This document shows positions 675 to 59,021 of a stretch of 64,000 nt of DNA, piece by piece. Each line of letters begins with the position of its first letter. Within the stretch, counting starts at the first letter, position 1. The notes beneath the pieces were generated by a model. That model worked only from the letters and a program-made list of their open reading frames with translations, was not told the origin of the DNA and ran no database searches. The stretch lies in the NCBI GenBank assembly GCA_001600635.1, contig BCKL01000016.1:300449-364448 (forward strand), in the 5' to 3' direction. The stretch is from Leucosporidium creatinivorum (lineage: Eukaryota; Basidiomycota; Microbotryomycetes; Leucosporidiales; Leucosporidiaceae). The translations under genes and the position numbers were made by a program.

Positions 675-837
675 GAGGGAAATGGAGAGTCTGTGATGCT
701 TGTTGTAAGGGATTAGTGTAGTATCGCGAGTGAGCGGTGAGGAGAAGCGCCGAGAAGGGCTGAGCGCCGAGCTCGGCTAACATGTCGCCTTGAGCTTCCT
801 CAGGCCTGAGCCAGCTGGGTTACGAGCAAGGGGCGCA

Positions 838-1045
838 GGTTGGAGGTCAAACCGCAGCAAGATGTTGCACCGAGGGTGTTCCTGTTGCTCAAGGGAGTGA
901 CGCAGGAAGAGAGTGAGGGATGGTGGAGGGCCGAGGAGGTCGATTGGGTCAAGGAGGTCGGCGTTGAGCAGGATAGGTTCGGCGATGAGAAGCTGTTCCG
1001 AGTGCTCGAGTGGGGTGGTATGGAGGCCATCGTGCTAGAGATGTC
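838..1045 (+). pseudogene. 3'-end remnant of a Ubl-KPVIYLYP family gene, joined to repeat A
   Basis: Translation gives about 65 residues that align directly with the C-terminus of the gene at 57584-59021. Both contain RVFLL-KGV, a Trp/Arg-rich stretch, then DWVKEVGVE and LFRVLEWGGME. No upstream part of that gene is present here. The remnant runs straight into sequence shared with repeat copy C, exactly as the intact gene does at 57.6 kb, so gene end and repeat appear to have been duplicated as one block. It differs from the 57.6 kb gene at many positions, so either the duplication is old or the source was another family member. Confidence 0.75.
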
Positions 1046-12269: not shown

Positions 12270-12749
12270 CCTGCCAGATCGTAAAAGTGTCGAGATGAGG
12301 GGGAGGGAGAGAGGCTTCTGAGAAGTTGGGCTCGAGAGTCAGGGGTCGCTCGACTGTAGGCAAGCAAAGATGAGCAATTGCAACATCTAGGCCGCTCTCG
12401 CTGCTGCTGCTTACCACCCTGCAGTCCTCCCATTGTCGTTCAACGTTCGGCCCTTGGGCGTGAAGAACGAACGGGGTGCGCTACAGCTTACTTTGCGGCG
12501 AGTCGGGCGGTGAGCTCTTCCGGAATAATGTTTTGAGCTCATGTACCCCCTGTGGGAGTAGTGAAGAGGCTAGAGACAGCAGAAGCCGTAGCCAACCCTT
12601 CGCCGAGCTGCTCCACCCGCCGACTTTCGACTCTTGTGTGTATTGTGTTAGCTACAAAGCAGCTGCCTGAGATTGGAAAACCTCTCGCGAGCTGCTGCGG
12701 GAAGCTGAGAGTCTTGCGATGGCGATTGAGAAGACTGGAAGAGCGTGTA
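12270..12749. promoter_or_regulatory. Upstream region of the F-box gene, up to repeat B
   Basis: About 480 bases. Minus-strand sequence just above the ATG at 12269 has a 5'-UTR intron pattern: a GTAAGC donor near 12414 and a CAG acceptor next to the ATG. An upstream ATG at 12433 would not splice into the same frame. The remainder looks non-coding. Confidence 0.45.
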
Positions 12750-13740
12750 GCTGCTCGGCGCCGATTTTCGAGCTCTCGCGGCGGGCGTAAGGCTCCTACC
12801 GGCTTCAAGTCGGCAAGGGAGGTAGCTACAAACTCTATGAGGCTGATTCGTTGCACCAGCGCATCCCGGAGCCCTCTGCTGCACCTCGAGAACGGCTGAG
12901 CTAAAATGGGGGGTCCGAGCGTCAGGCCAAGACGAGCTCGCCTGTAGCTCAGCTGCAGCTCGGTTTCCTCTCTTTCTCTCCTACCACATCCTGCTCAGTC
13001 TTCGAGGAGCGCTCCAGCTCTCATGACAAGGCTTGTGCAGCTCTCCTACAGCGTTCTCATGTTCTCCCTCCCCTCTCCTCTCCCCCCCTTGCCTCTGCCC
13101 CTTCGTCTCGCTTCTCCAATCGCTCTGTTAGCTTCCTAGCACTACTGATACCCCCACATCCCACCCTTCACCTGCCCTCCCTCGCCACACGCCTCCCTCT
13201 CAGTCAACCCGAGCACGAGCGCCTCCTTGTGAGGAGGACGACTGCTCTACTCACGGTCCTCGAGCTAGAACACGGTCAGTGTCGCGCGGCTATGTTTTCA
13301 GGCAGCCTCAGTGGGTAAGCCCGGCCTCTTCCCCCACCCCGCTAGCTCACATAGAGGACCAGGGCGTCAGACCGACTGGGGGATGAGAATCGAGTGGAGC
13401 CCGAGGAGTCGCCGAGCCGAGCTTGGACAGCATCTGTAGCTGCTCAGGTTAGGCTTGGTTGAGTGTGCAGGTCTTGCTTAGCTTCTTGTTTAGCTTACTA
13501 CCACGCCGCAAGGCTACCAAACACAACTGGGCGGCTCACTTCGGTGAGTCGCCCGCAGAAACCGGTCGCCGAAACAGAGTGAGCCCATGAAGTCGGTCGC
13601 GAGGTCTATCTAGCCAATGAAGGGCGCTGAGCGTACAAGGATAACACTGGAAACACCAGTAGCTCTTGGCGACTCCCTGTGAGCTTTCAGCGAGATCGAT
13701 ACAGCCCTCTTCGCCGAGCATCGCCAAGAAGCTCTCGAGG
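12750..13740. repeat. Interspersed repeat, copy B
   Basis: Full version of the repeat, in the same orientation as copy C and inverted relative to copy A. Blocks shared with both include the Ser/Ala-like stretch at 12880-12910, the C/T-rich tract at 13060-13110 and the segment 13370-13600. It also carries 13129-13355, the part hidden by the gap in A, which includes a short imperfect hairpin near 13222. Homology to C stops near 13720, short of the region where A and C continue into the remnant gene. No terminal repeats or coding frame were found; the class is unknown. Confidence 0.85.
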
Positions 13741-13837: not shown

Positions 13838-16074
13838 CTATTCATTCTTGATCTTGAAGAACACCTTGCGAGTGAGGCCGTCCGAGCCAACCTCCTCCCT
13901 ACGCGACAGCTGGTACCCTCCGAGGCGGGGGAGGACCTGGATCTTGATGATGTACCACAGAAGGCCGAGTCCGATGATCCCGAAGCCGACTACCACGTGG
14001 AGATAGTAGGGAAGCGAGTCATAGGGACCACTCTCGCCTGCTGAAGGAGGAACGAGGGGTGCGGCGATGAGGAAGAGGTTGGCGAGGAAGTAGAAGATGG
14101 AGACGGGAAGGGTGGCCTTGATCGGCGAGCTCCAGCCGTACTGCTCCTTGCGAATGGTGACGATAATGAGACCGAGGGCGACGAGGGCGTTGAAGATGTT
14201 GAGCGGGTAGGAGATGAGGTTGAGGAGGAAGGAGTAGATGTCGCCGCCGGGAGGAGCGAGCATGATGATGAGGGAGACAGCCCATTGAAGAGCGAGTCCG
14301 GCGAAGGGAGCGTTGAAGGGCTTGTTGCTGGCGAAGAAACGGCTGAAGGGGAGAGCGCCCTCCCTGCCGAGCTCCTGGTTGATGCGACCCTGACCGAAGA
14401 GAACGGCAAGAACGTTGCCGATGGCGGAGAGGGCGATGATGACCGAGACGGCGCGTCCAGCGGTCTCGCCGAACATCTTGGTGAAGAAGACGGCGGCAAT
14501 GAGGCGATCGGAGTTCATGATCTCCTCCTTGGAGACGGCGGCAAAGAAGGCGATGTTGACGAGCATGTCTGTTGAAAGAGAGATTGTTAGCAAGAGCCGA
14601 GCACCGAGAGCTAAAGCGAGCAGGAAAGCGTACAGAGGATGGTAACGAGGATCATGGCGAGGGGAGCAGCAGTGCGGATCGTCTTGACAGGGTTGCGGAT
14701 CTCGGAGAGCGCATAAAAAGCGTTGGAGAAACCGACGAAGGCCCAAATGCTGTACAAGGAAGGAGAGATCAGCAAAAATTCGCCGCTGGCTAGCGCGGGA
14801 CGCGCTCGGTGGAAGCTGCGCCGACAGCGGGCCAGTCAAATGGACGTACACATTGTACAGACTGTTGACAAAGCTGTTGGCGTCGCTCTTGGATCCAGCA
14901 AAAGCGTTGACAAAGTTGGAGGGGTTCGGCGCTCCTCCCTTGACGTGACCTCCGAGGGCAACGAAGCCGGCAATGATGATGAAGAGGAGCACGCCAATCT
15001 TGAAGACTCCTAGGACGTTCTGGAGCCTGATGCCCCACTCTGCGACAAGGAAAAGGGTGTCAGAAAGGCTGCTCAGAAAGGCTGCTCCGAGCAGAAGGGC
15101 ATGCGCTGTGTCAAGAGGAGCGCGGAGACTCACTGGGGATGCAGCCGTGAACGAGGAGGGCGAAGGTGACGACGGCGACTCCGATAGCACGCTGGTTCCA
15201 ACGAGTGACCTCAGTGTTGGCAGCGTTAAGCAACATCTCTCCCGCGTAGACCGAGCTGAATGAAAAGCAGGTCAGCGTCTCGTTCCAGGCTCCAAAGACT
15301 GAGCGAGCGACTCACTTTCCCGAAGGCCATCCGAGGAGAGCGGCGTAGATCCCATACAGGCATGTGATGGCGTACAGCGGTTTGCGGTAGGCAAACTCGA
15401 GGTACACCTTCTCCCCTCCCGAGCGGGGAAGAGCGCTGGCCCATTCCTAGAGGGAAGAGAGTCAGCTCGGCGCCGAGAATAGGAGGATGGGCAACGTACG
15501 AGGTAGACGGCGAGTCCAGCAGCGGCGATGATAGCTCCGATGACCCACAGAATTAATGCGAGTCCGATGGACCCCGTGGACGTGACGATGGAAGCGGGCG
15601 TAGCGAAGATACCTGAGAAAGAAGGTCAGCCGAGCCCTCAATTGACGAGAGGAGAAGGCGGCGACTGGCAAGCCTCCATCCAGCTCGCGAGGCAGCCCTT
15701 AGCAGAACAAGATCCCTCGTCACTTACCAGTCCCGATCATACGGTTAGCGATTAACATCACCGCTGAGAAGGTTCCCAGTCTGCGATTTCCCTCGGGGAC
15801 CTTGTCGAAAGACTCTCCATCGTTGTCGCCTACAGGAAAGAAGAGAGAAGGTCAGCCCTCGCCGAGCAGTGGCGACGGGGCTTGCGCCGAGCTCGGCGCT
15901 CGCAAGACCGACGAGAGCGTGGCTCAGGATAGTCAGACGTAGATGTAACCTACCAGCATTGACATGTTGGATAACAGTGTCATCCACGACCTTTTTACTA
16001 GCGAATCCCTCGTTGACGTCAAAGTTCGAGTCGGCCTTCTTGATGCTGGGGTCGGAAGAGGGTGCAACACTCAT
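13838..16074 (-). CDS. MUP1-like high-affinity amino acid (methionine) permease
   Basis: Plasma-membrane APC-superfamily permease of the fungal Mup1 type, expected to import methionine and related neutral amino acids by proton symport. About ten exons give roughly 550 residues. A hydrophilic N-terminus is followed by NRRLGTFSAVMLIANRMIGTGIF, the APC TM1 signature with the Mup1-type IGTGIFATP. About 12 hydrophobic segments follow. Other landmarks are EWASALPRSGGEKVYLEF, the conserved YALSEIRNPVKT loop and GWPSGK. The C-terminus is short and charged. Mup1-type carriers are ubiquitinated near the N-terminus on methionine excess; several Lys are present in the first 35 residues. Substrate specificity is inferred. 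An orphan copy of one exon lies at 59.66-59.89 kb. Confidence 0.85.
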
Positions 16075-24335: not shown

Positions 24336-25322
24336 ATGCCCGCCATTATCCACTCCCTCCCCGCCGAGACCCTTTCGCTCATCTTCGAGCTCGTTCGGAC
24401 GACAACGAATGACTACTGGCAAGCACAAGCCACGCTGAGGTGCGCCAGCCTCGTCAGCCGCTCTTGGAGAATTGGAGCTCAACGTGAGCTCGCGTACGAG
24501 GTCCGAATCCACTCCCGGACCCGCCAAATCCTTCGCGAAGGCTATCCGCCGAGGCAGGTCATCGAGCATTCCGCCGAATCGTGGCTACAGAGTCTGGCAT
24601 GTTGCAGTAGAGGATGTCGGATTATGACGCTCCCCGCTCGACTAGTCGACGCGACAGTGGATGCAGTCATCGCCCAGTGCGAAGGTTTGGTCGAACTCTC
24701 GGTCGAGAGCTGGGTGAGCTGGGGGATGTTACGATCACCGGCACTGGCTGGTAAGTTTTGCTGCAGCCTCCTCGATTACCTCGCTGATCCCCTGTGGCTC
24801 TCAGACTTGAAGACTCTCCGTCTGGACGCCTCCTTGACCGACCCGAACGACGACGACAACTCGTTTCCCTTCCGTCTCGCACACCTCATCTGGGACAACG
24901 CTTCCGCTCTCACCGCTCGACTCACTCGCACTCTCTTCACCCACTCGGCCTCCTCGATCACAACCCTCACCCTCATCTTCGCCTTCCCTGGACTGCCTCT
25001 CGACGGCGTCGAGCACCTCCCTCTTCTCCTTCCCCACCTACGCCATCTCAAGCTCCACTTTTTCAAGATCTACAAAGATGAATACCGCCTCTTCTCCTCC
25101 TGTGCCAAGTTGGAGACGCTCAGCTGCACTCCAGCGCTCGGAAGCGACCTTCTCACCTCCCTTCGGCCGCTCTTGGATGCCCTTACCGTCAAGCTGCGAG
25201 AGCTGTCGCTGGGAGGAGCAGTAGGAACTGCCATAGCGAAGATGACGACAGCTCACCCTCTGTTGGAGCATCCCACCCTCTCGGAGCTGGAGGGGTTGAG
25301 CTGCGAGGGAGTTCGGCGTTAG
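24336..25322 (+). CDS. F-box-like / leucine-rich protein
   Basis: Two exons, 24336-24750 and 24805-25322, give 310 residues. The 54-base GTAAGT...CAG intron is in frame, so an unspliced reading also stays open; splicing yields PALADLKTLRLDASL. The N-terminus, SLPAETLSLIFELVR then ASLVSRSWRIGAQ, is an F-box-like helix pattern. The rest has irregular leucine-rich spacing (LKTLRLDAS, ITTLTLIFAF, LRHLKLHFF, LETLSC, LRELSLGG) typical of the many basidiomycete F-box/LRR proteins. Role in SCF ligase targeting is inferred; the substrate is unknown. Confidence 0.75.
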   Translation: MPAIIHSLPAETLSLIFELVRTTTNDYWQAQATLRCASLVSRSWRIGAQRELAYEVRIHSRTRQILREGYPPRQVIEHSAESWLQSLACCSRGCRIMTLPARLVDATVDAVIAQCEGLVELSVESWVSWGMLRSPALAGKFCCSLLDYLADPLWLSDLKTLRLDASLTDPNDDDNSFPFRLAHLIWDNASALTARLTRTLFTHSASSITTLTLIFAFPGLPLDGVEHLPLLLPHLRHLKLHFFKIYKDEYRLFSSCAKLETLSCTPALGSDLLTSLRPLLDALTVKLRELSLGGAVGTAIAKMTTAHPLLEHPTLSELEGLSCEGVRR

Positions 25323-25818: not shown

Positions 25819-26792
25819 TCAGCCCCTCATGATGATGTGCTGCTCCTTCAAGAAGCACAAATCCCTCGCGTTGGCCGTAGGATCCAACCTTCCTCCCTCG
25901 TGCTTGAGCTCGACCTCGTCAGCCTTGACCTTGAAGTGCGCCGCGACCGAGGTGTAGACCTGCGACATTGGGTCCGTCCACTTGATGGGGAACGAGAACG
26001 TCTTGGTCTCTTGATGAGGTCTGATGCGAAGGATGGTGATTCGGCATAAGTCGGCCGAGGCGAGCGAGGAGGGGAAGGGAGGTTGAGACGAGCCGGGCGC
26101 CGAGGAGGGGTGTGAAACGAGTGGAGTGGGCGGGGCGTGTTGTGGTTGTACCTTAGAGGCGGAAGCGGCTCTGGCTTTGGCGGCGTCCAAGACGCGCTGG
26201 TAACCGAGGACGAGGCTGGCGGAAAGCTTGGAGGTCTCGGTCGAGGGAGCACCGGCTTTGCGACGAGTTCAGCGGGTGCAGGGTGCTGGTGCGCCTTCTT
26301 CGGTGGTGGCAGATCCTCCTCGGCATCGATCTTGCGCTTGAGAATCGGGGGAAGGTGTACGAGGGCCGGTGAGATGGTAGCTGCCGGCCGAGCCTCTGGT
26401 AGCCTCGGCGGAGTGAGGTTTGGCTTGCCTACGTTGATGTAGATCGGACTTCCTTCCTGCTTGAGGAGCGGAGCGTTCCATGCGTCCTCGGCAATCTCAC
26501 AAAACCGGGGGCCGTGAAAGAAGGTGAAGAAGAGCTCGGCGTCGGCGAGGTCAGGGAAGAAGGCGCGAGCCTTGGCCAGCGCTTCATCGTAGGTAGGTGG
26601 TCGCATGGTGAGGACTGATCTGTCTCGGTACACCAGCAGGACCGAGAGGTCGCTGTAGGCAGAGGTGCGTCAGCGCGATCCAAGCTCTCTTCGCTCGTTC
26701 GAGCTCACGGTGGGGTGAAAGTCGGGCTGTGGGCTGTAGGCAAGTGGTGAGCTCAGGATTCGCTCGCCTGGATAGAAGAGCTCACTGGACAT
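25819..26792 (-). CDS. Short ubiquitin-like (SUMO-like) protein, paralogue of the 57.6 kb gene
   Basis: The ATG at 26792 opens a 7-base coding exon (ATGTCCA). After two short introns the N-terminal domain reads LSVLLVYRDRSVLTMRP, then TYDEALAKAR. This aligns with TIVLTYRSRSLVILRP and TYAEALSEAR in the gene at 57.6-59.0 kb, and the two stay alignable through EDAWNAPLL/EEAWSTPIL and NVGKP/AAGKP. A Pro/Lys-rich linker follows. The C-terminal ~75 residues are a ubiquitin/SUMO-like fold: ITILRIRPHQETKTFSFPI, SQVYTSVAAHF, VELKHEGGRLDPT, LKEQHIIM. It ends right there without a diglycine and lacks the KPVIYLYP-like C-terminal domain of its paralogue. Upstream exons in the 5' region look non-coding. 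Function unknown. Confidence 0.65.
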
Positions 26793-54265: not shown

Positions 54266-54546
54266 GGCGAGCGGGTCGAGTACAGCCTCTGAAGCACGAG
54301 TCGACGAGTTTGAGCCTAGTAGCGACGTGGAAGAGGGCAAGTCCGAATGGGCGACGTCGATTCGAAACTCGCTGAGCACTCTTGCCCTCCTGCACCTCAC
54401 TCATTTCTAGCTTCGACTCGCTTGGACGACTCGCTTTGCTACAGCTCATTTGTGACTGCTCGCTGCTACAAGGTAAGTCCCTGCAGCTCTCTCTGCCCGC
54501 TCGCCGTGCTCAGACCGCTCACCGCCTTCAAACGAACAGCTCGACA
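54266..54546. promoter_or_regulatory. Divergent promoter: TSC1 and F-box gene
   Basis: About 280 bases between opposite start codons. The word GCTACA recurs (54438, 54472) on the F-box side. A plus-strand GTAAGT donor at 54475 suggests a 5'-UTR intron in the F-box gene. Confidence 0.45.
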
Positions 54547-56159
54547 ATGGAAGCTACACTCGCCTTGCTCTCGCTACAGGATGAAGCTGCTACAACACTC
54601 ACCTCCCTTCCGCCCGAGCTGCTCCTCGACATCGCCTCCCACCTCCCGCTTGGCCCACTCGCTCGCTTCTCCCTCGTCTCGCGCTTCGTCAGGGATGCGG
54701 TGCAGCCTCAGCTGTACAAGACGGTCCAGCTGTGGTCCCTCTTCAACGACAAGTCCTCGCAGGAGAAGCTCAAGGTCGTTAGGAGCGTGTTGTCGAGCTT
54801 GGCGGCCGACCCCGAGCGCTGCAGCCTAATGCGCGAGCTCGATCTTCGCGAGTGGCACTGGATGGGATCTGAGGAGGTGGATAATCTTGAGCTTGTGATT
54901 CGCCAGGCTCGCGGACTCAAGATGCTGCAGCTGGTGCGTTGCCAGCGATCTGCAGTCTTGCCCGACGATGCCGAGACCAGCGCTGACCTGCCTCTTGCGC
55001 CGCAGCTCAACGCCGGAGAGGTAGAGGCAAAGCACCACTATGTGCCGTTCTTTCCGAGAGCATGGAGGGCGGTGCTCTCCCTGCCCAGCCTCGAGGCCTT
55101 GTGCTGCTACGCTGGGCCTGTCGTTCCCCTCGAGCTTCATCGTCAACCGTCGCTCCGCCGCCTTATACTAGGCGACTATGACGTCTACCCGCATGAAGAT
55201 GGCACACTTCCTCGCCTCACCGAGCTGACTTTGGACACCGTGCATGGGTTCACGACCGCCTGGTTCCGACCCGAGCTGCTGGGCTCGCTCGAAACGCTCG
55301 TGCTCTCGTGGCTGGACGAGGAAGCTACGGACACCGTGACTCGCATCTTCGAAGTGAGCTTTCCTTCCTCATTCTCTGATGCCGCGCTGACTTCGCCGTC
55401 GTAGGCTTGGGAAGGCAAGTCGGCGCTTCGAAACCTCACCGTCGACCTGTACTTGAGCGAGCCGCCACTCAGCGCTCTGGCTCTGGTCTCACTCCTTCAA
55501 GCTGCGCTTAAGCTCAACTCTCTGTCGACCCTCGAGATTCATTCGACTCCGTGGCATTCTCAAACCCCGTCCGAGGCGTTCGATGCGCTCGAGCAGACTC
55601 TCCCTCTCGGCACGACGCTCGAGCATCTTGTGCTGGCTATGGCGCGCAGCCGACCTACTATGTTCCAACCGAAAGACCTCGTGAGCGTGCCACAGCCTCA
55701 GGGGACGTGGTCTGTAGCTAACCTCGAGACTCGCCTCCACGCAGGCTCGGCTCGGTCGTCTGCTCGAGAAGCTCCCCCGTCTCGTCACCTTCAAAACGTC
55801 AGCTGTTCTCGAGCAGTTTCGCTTCTCAGACCATCACTAACCTCTTTGCCTCTTGCAGCGACCTTGCTACCGCCTACTTCGACTTGGCCAGCATACCCCA
55901 GCTCATCTCGCGCATGCGCTCCATCGGCGCCCCCGTGCTCACCCAACAGATCGAGAGGCTTCCTCTTCCCGAGGAAGCGAGGATACTCTTTGGAGGACAC
56001 GCATCACTGAAGGAGGTCGTGATTCGTGGGGATGAGGTCGTTGAGGATCATCCGACAGACCCCCTCGTCGTTTTCGAGCGAGGCGCTTCGGGAGAGATTA
56101 TGCGGGTCTGTACCGCCGAGTCGTGGCGGGGGAAAGTTGTGAGGACTTTTTCCGACTAG
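54547..56159 (+). CDS. F-box / leucine-rich protein
   Basis: Four exons in phase: 54547-55353, 55405-55680, 55745-55797 and 55859-56159, giving 478 residues. The F-box lies at residues about 20-60: LTSLPPELLLDIASHLPLGPLARFSLVSRFVRDAV then QLYKTVQLW. The rest has irregular leucine-rich repeats (MRELDLREWHW, LKMLQLVRCQ, LPSLEALCCY, LRRLILGDYDVYP, LTELTLDT, LETLVLSWLD, LRNLTVDLYL, LSTLEIHS, LEHLVLAM). This is the standard design of expanded basidiomycete F-box families. The substrate is unknown. The start is the first ATG after the probable leader intron. Confidence 0.8.
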
Positions 56160-56529
56160 CCGAAAGCCTTCGCTTCGAGCTTAGCTGCTGAAACCCGACA
56201 CGCCGTCTCTTGATTGTGCTCGGCAGAGGCGAGTTCGGCGAAACAAGTCGGCGAGTTCGTGAGGGGCCTTTGCCAGCTTACTTTTCAGAGTGTGGCACAC
56301 AGGACATACTTGAGGGTGGATTTCGAGCTGCCAAGCTACAGCTACCAAGAACCTTGGCGTAGGCGCCTCTAGCTAGGTCACCCTCCGTCGAGGAGCTCGA
56401 TTGGCCGGGCTATGGCTTCTCGGTGCTCTGTGTCGACCGCAAACCATCTAAGAAAGGGACCAGGGCCTCCTTCGAGCCCCCGCGTGAAGTCGACAGCCTT
56501 ACGAACGTAAGCGAGCGCAGCTTGAGAAC
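56160..56529. other. Intergenic before repeat C
   Basis: About 370 bases downstream of the F-box gene. No coding frame or known motif. Similarity to repeats A and B becomes visible from about 56530. Confidence 0.4.
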
Positions 56530-57590
56530 GAGCAGCTGTTCGGCGACGGTCTCGGGGCTGTCTCCACTTGCGCAAGGCTCCTACTGGCTTCAAAATCTTA
56601 GGGAAGGTAGATGTACAGTACCGAAAGCTACCTCTATGCTCCAGAAGACCGCAGAACCTCCTGCTGCACCTCGAGAGCGGCTTGAGCTAAAACGGGGGTC
56701 CGAGCGTCAAGCCAAGACGAGCTCGCCTGTAGCTCAGCTGCAGCTCCGTTTCGCCTCCTACCAAATCTTGCTCAGCCTCCGAAGAGCGCTGTAGCTCTCA
56801 TGACAAGGCCTGGGCTGCCCTCCCACAGCGTTCTAATGTTCTCCCCCTCCCCCTCCCCTCTCCCCCTTTGCTTCTACCCCTTCGTCTCGCTGCTACTGTC
56901 CCTCTGCTAGCTTCCTGGCACTACTGATACCCCCACACACCACCCTACACCTGCTCTCCCTCGCCACACGCCTCCCTCTCAGTCAACCCGAGCACGAGCG
57001 CCTCCTTGTGAGGAGGACGACTGCTCTACCCACGGTCCTCGAGCTAGAACACGGTCAGTGTCGCGCGGCTATGTTTTCAGGCAGCCTCAGTGGGTAAGCC
57101 CGGCCTCTTCCCCCACCCCGCTAGCTCACATAGAGGACCAAGGGCGTCAGACCGACTGGGGGATGAGAATCGAGTGGAGCCCGAGGAGTCGATGAACCGA
57201 GCTTGGACAGCATCTGTAGCTGCTCAGGCTTGGCTTGGTTGAGTATGCAGGTCTTGCTTAGCTTCTTGTTTAGCTTACTACCACGCCGCGAGGCTCTCAA
57301 ACAACTGGGCGGCTCACTTCGGTGAGTCGCCCGCAGAAACCGGTCGCCGAAACAGGGTGAGCCCATGAAGTCGGTCGCGAGGACTATCTCGCGAATGAAG
57401 GGTGCTGAGCGTCCGAGCAGGCTATTGAGATCATCAGAAGCTTTCGGTGACTCGCTGTGAGCTTTCAGCGAGCTCGATACAGCCCTCTTCGCCGAGCTCT
57501 TCGAGGTCAGGCTCTCTCGGTCGAAGAGGCATGAGACGGCACATCGACTTCGTAATGCAGGCATCAACCCAAAAGACACATCTCTAGCAG
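56530..57590. repeat. Interspersed repeat, copy C
   Basis: Same orientation as copy B, inverted relative to A. It shares the complete central segment with B, including 56930-57125, which corresponds to the gap in A, and shares 57400-57590 with A only. The right end overlaps the stop codon of the ubiquitin-like gene at 57584. It shows more differences from A and B than A and B show from each other. No coding frame, terminal repeats or target-site duplication could be identified. Confidence 0.85.
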
Positions 57591-59021
57591 CCGACGACCT
57601 CCATGCCACCCCACTCCAGCACCCGGAACAGCTCCTCGTCGCGAACCTTGCCCTCCTCAACGCCGACCTCCTTGACCCAGTCGACATCCTCCACCTTCCT
57701 CCACCTCTCACTCTCCACTGCGTCAACTCCCTTNAACAAGAGGAACACCCTCGTGACGACATCCGGCCTCGGCTCGACCTCCAAGCTCGCCGCCTGCTCG
57801 TAAGCCGCCTGCGCGAGGAAGCGGAAAGCGATCTGTTGGCCTCGCTCGTGAATGCGGACGAAAGAGGGGAGCCAGTAGGTGATGAAGTCGTTTCGGGCGG
57901 AAGTGTGGAGGGAGAGGGCGGTGAGGGCTTTGTCGAGGTGGGAAAGGAATGAGGTGAAGGGGAGGAGCGCGGCGTTGGAGCGGTCGAGCGAAGGGCGGCC
58001 GGGGTTGAAGATGTTGAGAGAGCGGGTGGAAGGCGACTCGGAAGGAAGTAGAGGCGGTGAGGGAGGAAGGGAAGGAGCGTGGGCCTCCCAGAACAGGTAG
58101 GAGAGGGAGAGGGAAGAAGCCTTGTCGACGAGGGTGCCATCGGGCGAGGCGGCGACGGTCCAAGAGGTCGTCGAGCTTCCATCCTTGCCGCGAGTGATGT
58201 CCGAGAGAGGGTAAAGTGCCGAGAAGGTCCACTCGGGGACGAGGGTGAGGTCGACTTGGACCGAAGCGAGCGCCGAGGGGGGGAAGAGGTAGACGACGGG
58301 CTTGCCTCCAACCTGTATTGAACGAAAGTCGATGATTTCCTCTCCTTTAATACCCACAATTTCGGGGGTATCGTCGGGCCACAGAGCCTCGCCCTCCCAA
58401 ATCAGCTTGAAGTGGGACTCGCGAATCCCCCGCTGCCGAGCAACCGCTGTGTAGATCTTGCTGAAAGGTGTAGTGATCTTGACCTTCACCAGATTGTCCT
58501 CCTCGCCCGCGGCGCTACGGATCACCAAACTGCAGTACTCAATTGTTGCCGGGAGGGGGCCGACGGCGGGCCCATCGTGAGCCAGCTGGGCCGTCGATGA
58601 GGATGAGGGGTTCGAGTATCTCGCGCACTTGCTCGGTGCTGATTCGGCGGCGTTGTCCTCCCTCAGATGCTTCTGAGCCGAGCTTGATGGTGCAGGGCCT
58701 CTCGGCGCCGTCCTCAGGAATGGCTTGCCCGCCGCGACCCGAAAGGCTTTGCCATTCTCCCAGAGTATGGGCGTGGACCAGGCTTCCTCAGAAACGTCGC
58801 AAGCCTCGGTAGAGCCGACTGTGGTGCGCAGAAGGAACTCGGCGTCCGAGGCGAGCGAGAAGACGATCCGAGCTTCGGAGAGAGCTTCAGCGTAGGTTCG
58901 AGGGCGTAGGATGACCAGGGAGCGGGAGCGGTACGTCAAGACGATTGTTTGGCTGAAGGGAAGCGAAGCTGGTGAGCGTTTGACCTCTCCACCATTGTGC
59001 TAGAGCTCACCTTGTCGCCAT
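57584..59021 (-). CDS. Ubiquitin-like protein fused to a KPVIYLYP-type domain
   Basis: Two coding exons, 59011-59021 and 57584-58952, give 459 residues; the intron splits codon 4. Three parts are visible. Residues 1-85: TIVLTYRSRSLVILRP and TYAEALSEAR, shared with the gene at 25.8 kb. Residues about 135-205: SUMO/ubiquitin-like (LVKVKITTPFSKIYTAVA, FKLIWEGEALWPDD, IKGEEIIDFRS). Residues about 207-459: GGKPVVYLFPPSA, LVPEWTFSALYPL, TSWTVAASPDGTLVD, LSYLFWEA, RNDFITYWLPSF, EPRPDVVTRVFLL. The last part matches, from memory, a bacterial family marked by KPVIYLYP, WNVTAYPDGTL, YLFWEG, FIVYWLP and RVFMV. One ambiguous base (57734) falls in the LL-KGV stretch. Function unknown; a signal or adaptor role is speculation. 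Confidence 0.75.

Follow-up and report, generated by a model that had tools for sequence, protein, structure and literature searches.

A predicted protein of Leucosporidium creatinivorum joins a SUMO-like domain through Gly-Gly to a KPV domain of bacterial kinship

What role a bacterial-type domain may have behind a ubiquitin-like head is the question raised by a gene of the yeast Leucosporidium creatinivorum. It lies in a window of 64,000 nucleotides, the whole stretch of DNA that was analyzed (C16:300449-364448), within a genome of 27.7 Mb in 63 contigs with a G+C content of approximately 60%. The initial annotation placed the gene correctly, and its strand is minus. Exon 1 comprises 11 bases (59020-59010, with the ATG at 59020) and is followed by a GT-AG intron of 57 bases (59009-58953) and by exon 2 (58952-57584), which ends with a TAG at 57584. 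The predicted protein of about 459 residues is composed of an N-terminal domain, a linker, a SUMO-like domain, a Gly-Gly pair, and a KPV domain that forms its C-terminal end, and confidence in this domain make-up is very high. The landmarks read at first inspection (KPVVYLF, LYP, WTVAASPDGTL, YLFWEA, FITYWLP, and RVFLL) are all found in the protein. The sequence starts with MATSQTIVL and presents no hydrophobic N terminus by eye, and NCBIfam and PHROGs searches of the protein retrieved no match. An N at base 57734 leaves one codon as TTN (Phe or Leu). Within the genome, the KPV domain is found only on contig C16, as copy A in the window, copy B at 400 kb, copy C at 228 kb, and relics. The features of the window are as follows.

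57584-59020, minus strand: whole gene, copy A, from ATG to TAG in two exons, with the ATG and the 5' splice site kept in copy B
58715-58951, minus strand: N-terminal domain, also present in ORF 25848-26669 and in copy B
58541-58714, minus strand: linker, with a Lys/Arg-bearing stretch and a weak nuclear-signal-like motif read by eye
58304-58528, minus strand: SUMO-like domain, with the Gly-Gly at 58304-58309 (PF11976; SUMO chains of the PDB)
57587-58303, minus strand: KPV domain (tblastn to a Ruminococcus albus plasmid; fungal-only profile)
56525-57417, minus strand: repeat A, a dispersed repeat directly 3' of the KPV gene
26403-26648, minus strand: the N-terminal domain a second time, here within a different gene, ORF 25848-26669 (tblastn; alignment A6)
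768-1039, plus strand: 5'-truncated KPV relic (62% over 68 residues by tblastn; blastn), fused to a flank-repeat copy

A resemblance of the KPV domain to the bacterial KPVIYLYP family had been proposed, as a point open to refutation, and the similarity is significant. Pfam retrieved no match for the last 240 residues, and when 72,556 plasmid records were searched with them by tblastn, the one strong match was to a plasmid of R. albus (E value of 4e-11, 99% coverage, 27% identity) that encodes a BspA-type surface protein (WP_013483720.1); two Cupriavidus plasmid rows at an E value of 9 were dropped as chance. A less circular test used a profile made from the three fungal copies only, run against 4,248 ORFs of 88 loci (78 kept from the contig scan described below, 8 from genome searches, the plasmid, and a phage record). 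This profile matched 86 of the 88 loci, every match having an E value of at most 1e-3 and the best one 2.1e-15, with two weak loci (L132 and L148) unmatched, and it retrieved zero reversed-ORF decoys at E values up to 10. The homology is secure because the fungal-only profile finds these loci and none of the reversed ORFs, and common descent of the KPV domain and the bacterial family is regarded as close to certain. Identity to the domain of the window is 33 to 38% over aligned columns for Ruminococcus-type rows and 26% for the phage row. The landmarks KP..YL(Y/F), PDG, LF(W), F(I/V).(Y/F)W, PD, and EWGG occur in order (alignments A3 and A4).

When genome contigs were scanned with a mixed alignment headed by the R. 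albus domain, 290 stretches encoding relatives came to light. Seventy-eight loci were kept out of the best 80 for the R. albus-led query, a choice that biases their taxonomic make-up, and 74 of them are titled Ruminococcus and 4 Oscillospiraceae bacterium. Of the 78 kept loci, 76 were readable for a survey of ORF ends (all except L096 and L112); the ORF ends at most 12 residues after WGG in 75 of these 76, and crude hydropathy shows a hydrophobic N-terminal stretch in 62 of the 67 bacterial ORFs uncut by a contig edge. The bacterial domain thus appears to be a C-terminal module of mostly exported proteins. Pfam searches of 10 chosen bacterial proteins (9 from the kept loci, and L128) found dockerin in seven (six above the cut-off), SH3_3 in six (all below the cut-off), GH9 in two, and GH11, a leucine-rich repeat of BspA type, and nothing in one each; across the 11 bacterial proteins scanned, no Pfam model corresponded to the KPVIYLYP module itself. 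In Ruminococcus, the domain recurs at the C-terminal end of surface proteins and of enzymes that bear dockerins (L055, L058, and L086, among others). Some of the proteins also contain dockerins and glycoside hydrolases, which suggests that the KPV domain may be a binding or anchoring module. Dockerin proteins are reported to hold conserved modules of unknown kind, and the available portion of that report contains no description of the KPV module (PMC4081043). The distribution of the family is scattered: relatives occur in 4 of 398 genomes from the phylum of G001 and in 3 of 46 from the class of G158, each of these two genomes being included in its count. Two scans of viral contigs (44 and 12 candidate stretches) yielded no relatives. 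One phage record matched with an E value of 0.08 for the fungal query and 4e-25 for the R. albus query, and one plasmid record gave a significant match.

The domain preceding KPV had been read as SUMO/ubiquitin-like, and profile searches agree with that reading. Residues 143 to 209 of the exon-2 protein match PF11976 (Rad60-SLD) with an E value of 4.8e-8 and 33.2 bits against a cut-off of 23.8, and two further ubiquitin-like Pfam families match at the same place below their cut-offs. The best PDB sequence is the SUMO-2 chain 4bkg (E value of 4.6e-9), and below it come SUMO and Smt3 chains, many of them present as tags on other proteins. The ubiquitin-like assignment is one made from sequence profiles. 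In the PDB sequence alignment, the tail runs without gaps through the Gly-Gly of SUMO, with KPVVYLF coming next, so that the SUMO-like domain ends where a SUMO precursor would be cut. Gly-Gly precedes KPV in all three full-length fungal domains (copies A, B, and C) versus none of 86 non-fungal domains, five of which have a single Gly just before KP; the pair therefore came with the ubiquitin-like side or with the fusion. This Gly-Gly, absent from the initial annotation, is judged the most informative feature. The residue that follows it, at position P1', is Lys and not Pro; Ulp1 tolerates most P1' residues, Pro excepted. A C48 peptidase match is found elsewhere in the genome (C39, E value of 2.3e-9), covering 46 of 217 positions and thus partial. 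The tail reads QVGG in copy A versus RAGG in copy B, and the SUMO-like domain has diverged between these copies (39% identity, dN/dS of about 0.67).

The Rad60-SLD profile has 19 matches in the genome, several of which read as ubiquitin or as diverged single ubiquitin-like units. Ubiquitin-like matches in odd contexts occur at C6:237615-238760 and C1:726879 and on C11, C13, C23, and C25, with several on C11 and C23, and these suggest ubiquitin-derived duplicates.

The reading favored here, tentatively, is that the gene encodes a SUMO-type precursor that is cut after Gly-Gly to release the KPV domain. The protein is presumed to be intracellular, in keeping with its first residues, and its SUMO-like domain would be the head of a SUMO-type precursor, built into the protein. 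Cleavage after Gly-Gly by a Ulp1-type (C48) protease of the yeast itself, much as in ubiquitin-ribosomal protein precursors, would leave a free KPV domain that starts with lysine. This module, which may combine a beta sandwich with a helical part, would bind a ligand; the cut and the lysine that it exposes would govern the release of the module or its short life. The position of the Gly-Gly exactly as in SUMO, its presence in three of three fungal versus 0 of 86 non-fungal domains, the Lys at P1', and the partial C48 match argue for the cut. The 239 stop-free codons compared between copies A and C, with a dN/dS of 0.28, also favor this reading. The RAGG tail of copy B, the TAG in the same copy, the Gly-Gly of copy C with no recognized ubiquitin-like domain, the divergence of the SUMO-like domain, and the single Gly before KP in five of the 86 non-fungal domains argue against it. 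As copy C keeps the Gly-Gly with no recognized ubiquitin-like domain, the pair may persist as the edge of a duplicated block. Two extensions of the precursor reading are graded lower. That a SUMO protease frees a foreign module, akin to C-terminal parts of rumen cellulosome-type enzymes, as an intracellular protein starting with lysine, SUMO processing acting as a delivery switch, is doubtful, and an effect of the cut through a lysine degron is improbable.

An uncut adaptor is nearly as likely as the cut precursor. The SUMO-like domain would then be a permanent docking module through which KPV reaches partners that bind SUMO, perhaps in the nucleus. According to the available part of PMC1949818, adaptor roles in multidomain proteins are known or predicted for several ubiquitin-like families. 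The difference of the tail between copies (QVGG versus RAGG) is consistent with such a role, as are the clusters of Lys/Arg read by eye after the N-terminal domain in copy A, in copy B, and in the gene at 26 kb. A fixed adaptor, however, would have no need of a terminal Gly-Gly placed exactly at the SUMO cut position.

The linker is only 27% identical in amino acids between copies A and B. The N-terminal domain before it is common to the gene at 25.8 kb, as first noted: ORF 25848-26669 matches with an E value of 3e-16 and 38% identity over 78 residues in tblastn, and the tblastn matches of this domain overall range from 38 to 46% identity and from 3e-16 to 6e-18, a C3 row at an E value of 0.34 having been dropped as chance. 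That ORF carries a proline-rich tail, and no SUMO-like or KPV domain was matched in it. The N-terminal domain has no Pfam match, and its alignment retrieved nothing below an E value of 0.98 among PDB profiles. The order of its likely strands raised the idea of a second ubiquitin-like domain, which was rejected (hhalign probability of 0.6%, E value of 0.096); its global score with the SUMO-like domain was equaled in 513 of 2,000 shuffles and gives no support for kinship. Neighbors on the contig include a permease and a DEAD-box helicase. ATG2, a hamartin-like protein, and an F-box protein are also encoded there, and such genes, like the intron, are consistent with a fungal genome. Close to the KPV gene is an F-box ORF (54382-55404), and close to the gene at 26 kb is a weak F-box-like ORF that scores below the cut-off (24336-25322); the similarity between the two is not significant (E value of 0.05).

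Copy B, 42 kb from copy A, keeps the gene plan, the ATG, and the GTGAG 5' splice site, and it has a TAG inside its SUMO-like domain. Amino acid identity between the two copies is 46% in the N-terminal domain, 39% in the SUMO-like domain, and 97% in the KPV domain, and 549 consecutive bases, the same N among them, are identical in both. Gene conversion and a collapsed assembly are equally likely explanations of this identity. In the stretches retrieved, isolated Ns are found at window position 57734, at L036 4643, and in L037, L038, and L141, all of them loci with the repeat or the KPV domain, and 8 other repeat loci have none; they may reflect repeats that collapsed during assembly. In copy C, homology starts at the Gly-Gly, upstream of which no SUMO-like domain is recognized, and the copy is 78% identical to copy A. 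The KPV domains of copies A and C differ with a dN of 0.12 and a dS of 0.44, and the resulting ratio of 0.28 is suggestive of selection at the protein level. That copy C is free of stops is moderate evidence only, because neutral simulations are also free of stops in 16% of runs with 60 changes and in 4% of runs with 122.

Relics lie on C16 at 301 kb (window 828-1031) and at 209 kb, with a short tail at 244 kb found by blastn only; rows on C23 and C29 at an E value of about 1 were dropped as chance from the search for the KPV domain. The relic at 828-1031, on the plus strand, corresponds to the 3'-terminal part of the KPV domain, and the region 768-1039 is 86% identical by blastn to 57135-57848. 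It lies beside a copy of the flank repeat, which bears out the early remark that relics of the family occur by repeat A. Repeat A measures about 0.9 kb, and its larger matches share 74 to 91% identity with the window copy. At 16 places (nine on C16, four on C1, two on C14, and one on C63), the match extends over several hundred bases, and there are traces on C22. They are clustered in parts of a few contigs, such as C1:1.61-1.76 Mb and C14:643-703 kb, and the window holds copies at 56525-57417, 12740-13719, and 1125-2146. A KPV gene, relic, or tail is joined to the repeat at five of the nine places on C16 and at none of the other 11 places, and KPV was therefore carried locally and not genome-wide by the repeat. 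Rfam gave no match in the window. The idea of a cassette slot specific to KPV genes was abandoned, as ORF 13838-15190, between similar flanks, is an amino acid permease.

These copies bear on an explanation that is rather unlikely, namely, that the family is decaying locally, its members having arisen incidentally through segmental duplication around repeat A and having no function today. The TAG in copy B, copy C with no recognized ubiquitin-like domain, the relics at 301 and 209 kb and, in DNA only, at 244 kb, the spread of repeat A over C16, C1, C14, and C63, and the exact 549-base run with the same N in copies A and B are all in keeping with decay. Against it stand copy A, which is open throughout with its landmarks conserved, the dN/dS of 0.28 between copies A and C, and the preservation of the bacterial landmarks despite a very long branch. 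The "undescribed system" for which the initial annotation named this gene as a candidate is too strong a term: the analysis finds a single intact gene, a copy interrupted by a stop, another in which no ubiquitin-like domain is recognized, and relics, all on one contig.

The fold of the KPV domain is not claimed. A single-sequence model of the full-length protein, without alignment, has a pLDDT of 33. A model of the KPV domain with 28 bacterial rows reaches 50, with blocks of 57 to 82 in the first 80 residues, and presents beta strands followed by helices; its best PDB structure match has an E value of 0.73. The KPV alignment found nothing below an E value of 0.98 among PDB profiles. In a tree of 11 rows, the fungal stem spans 2.33 changes per site and five of eight inner forks are open, leaving the fungal branch unplaced. 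Many basidiomycetes have unnamed proteins with similar KPV domains, so that in fungi the domain as such may not be rare. That the yeast recently acquired its KPV domain from a Ruminococcus-like bacterium would fit the other holders in the collections searched, which are bacteria and one phage record (with Ruminococcus in 74 of the 78 loci kept from the best 80 of the R. albus-led query), but it is very improbable given the identity of only 33 to 38% over aligned columns, the stem of 2.33 changes per site, and the similar domains in many basidiomycetes.

The fusion is real and unusual, and its parts can be set beside known systems. The bacterial KPVIYLYP domain, as in WP_013483720.1, has the same order of landmarks, is homologous over the whole domain, and likewise has WGG near the C terminus. 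It comprises about 180 residues and follows leucine-rich repeat, dockerin, SH3_3-like, GH9, or GH11 parts, whereas the fungal domain, longer at about 239 residues, contains an insert and is preceded by a SUMO-like domain. The SUMO-like domains of Rad60, Esc2, and NIP45 belong to the same Pfam family and are fixed in a larger protein. In L013 on C9, a Rad60-SLD match of the same genome that we take to be Rad60/Esc2/NIP45, the SUMO-like domain ends the reading frame, unlike in the KPV gene, where Gly-Gly and another module follow. Precursors of SUMO and Smt3 have the same SUMO-type domain with Gly-Gly at the matching place. Their extension after Gly-Gly is usually a few residues, and the fungal gene differs from them by an extension of about 239 residues and by the extra N-terminal domain. 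A narrow literature search, in which few subscription journals were covered, found neither KPVIYLYP or KPVIYLY in any paper text nor a SUMO-type head joined via Gly-Gly to a module of exported bacterial proteins. Natural ubiquitin fusions are already known, and the part regarded here as new is the joining of KPV to a SUMO-like domain with Gly-Gly. The fusion lets one ask whether SUMO proteases also mature carried proteins, and the work yields a profile for a common Ruminococcus module with which some cellulosome-type enzymes end. Precursor genes of this kind have their known model in the ubiquitin-ribosomal fusions L40 and S27a, which, like FUBI-eS30, place a ubiquitin-like head on a different functional protein, with ubiquitin precursors being cleaved at Gly-Gly, as described in the available part of PMC11354881; here, in contrast, the head is of SUMO type and the carried module is of bacterial type.
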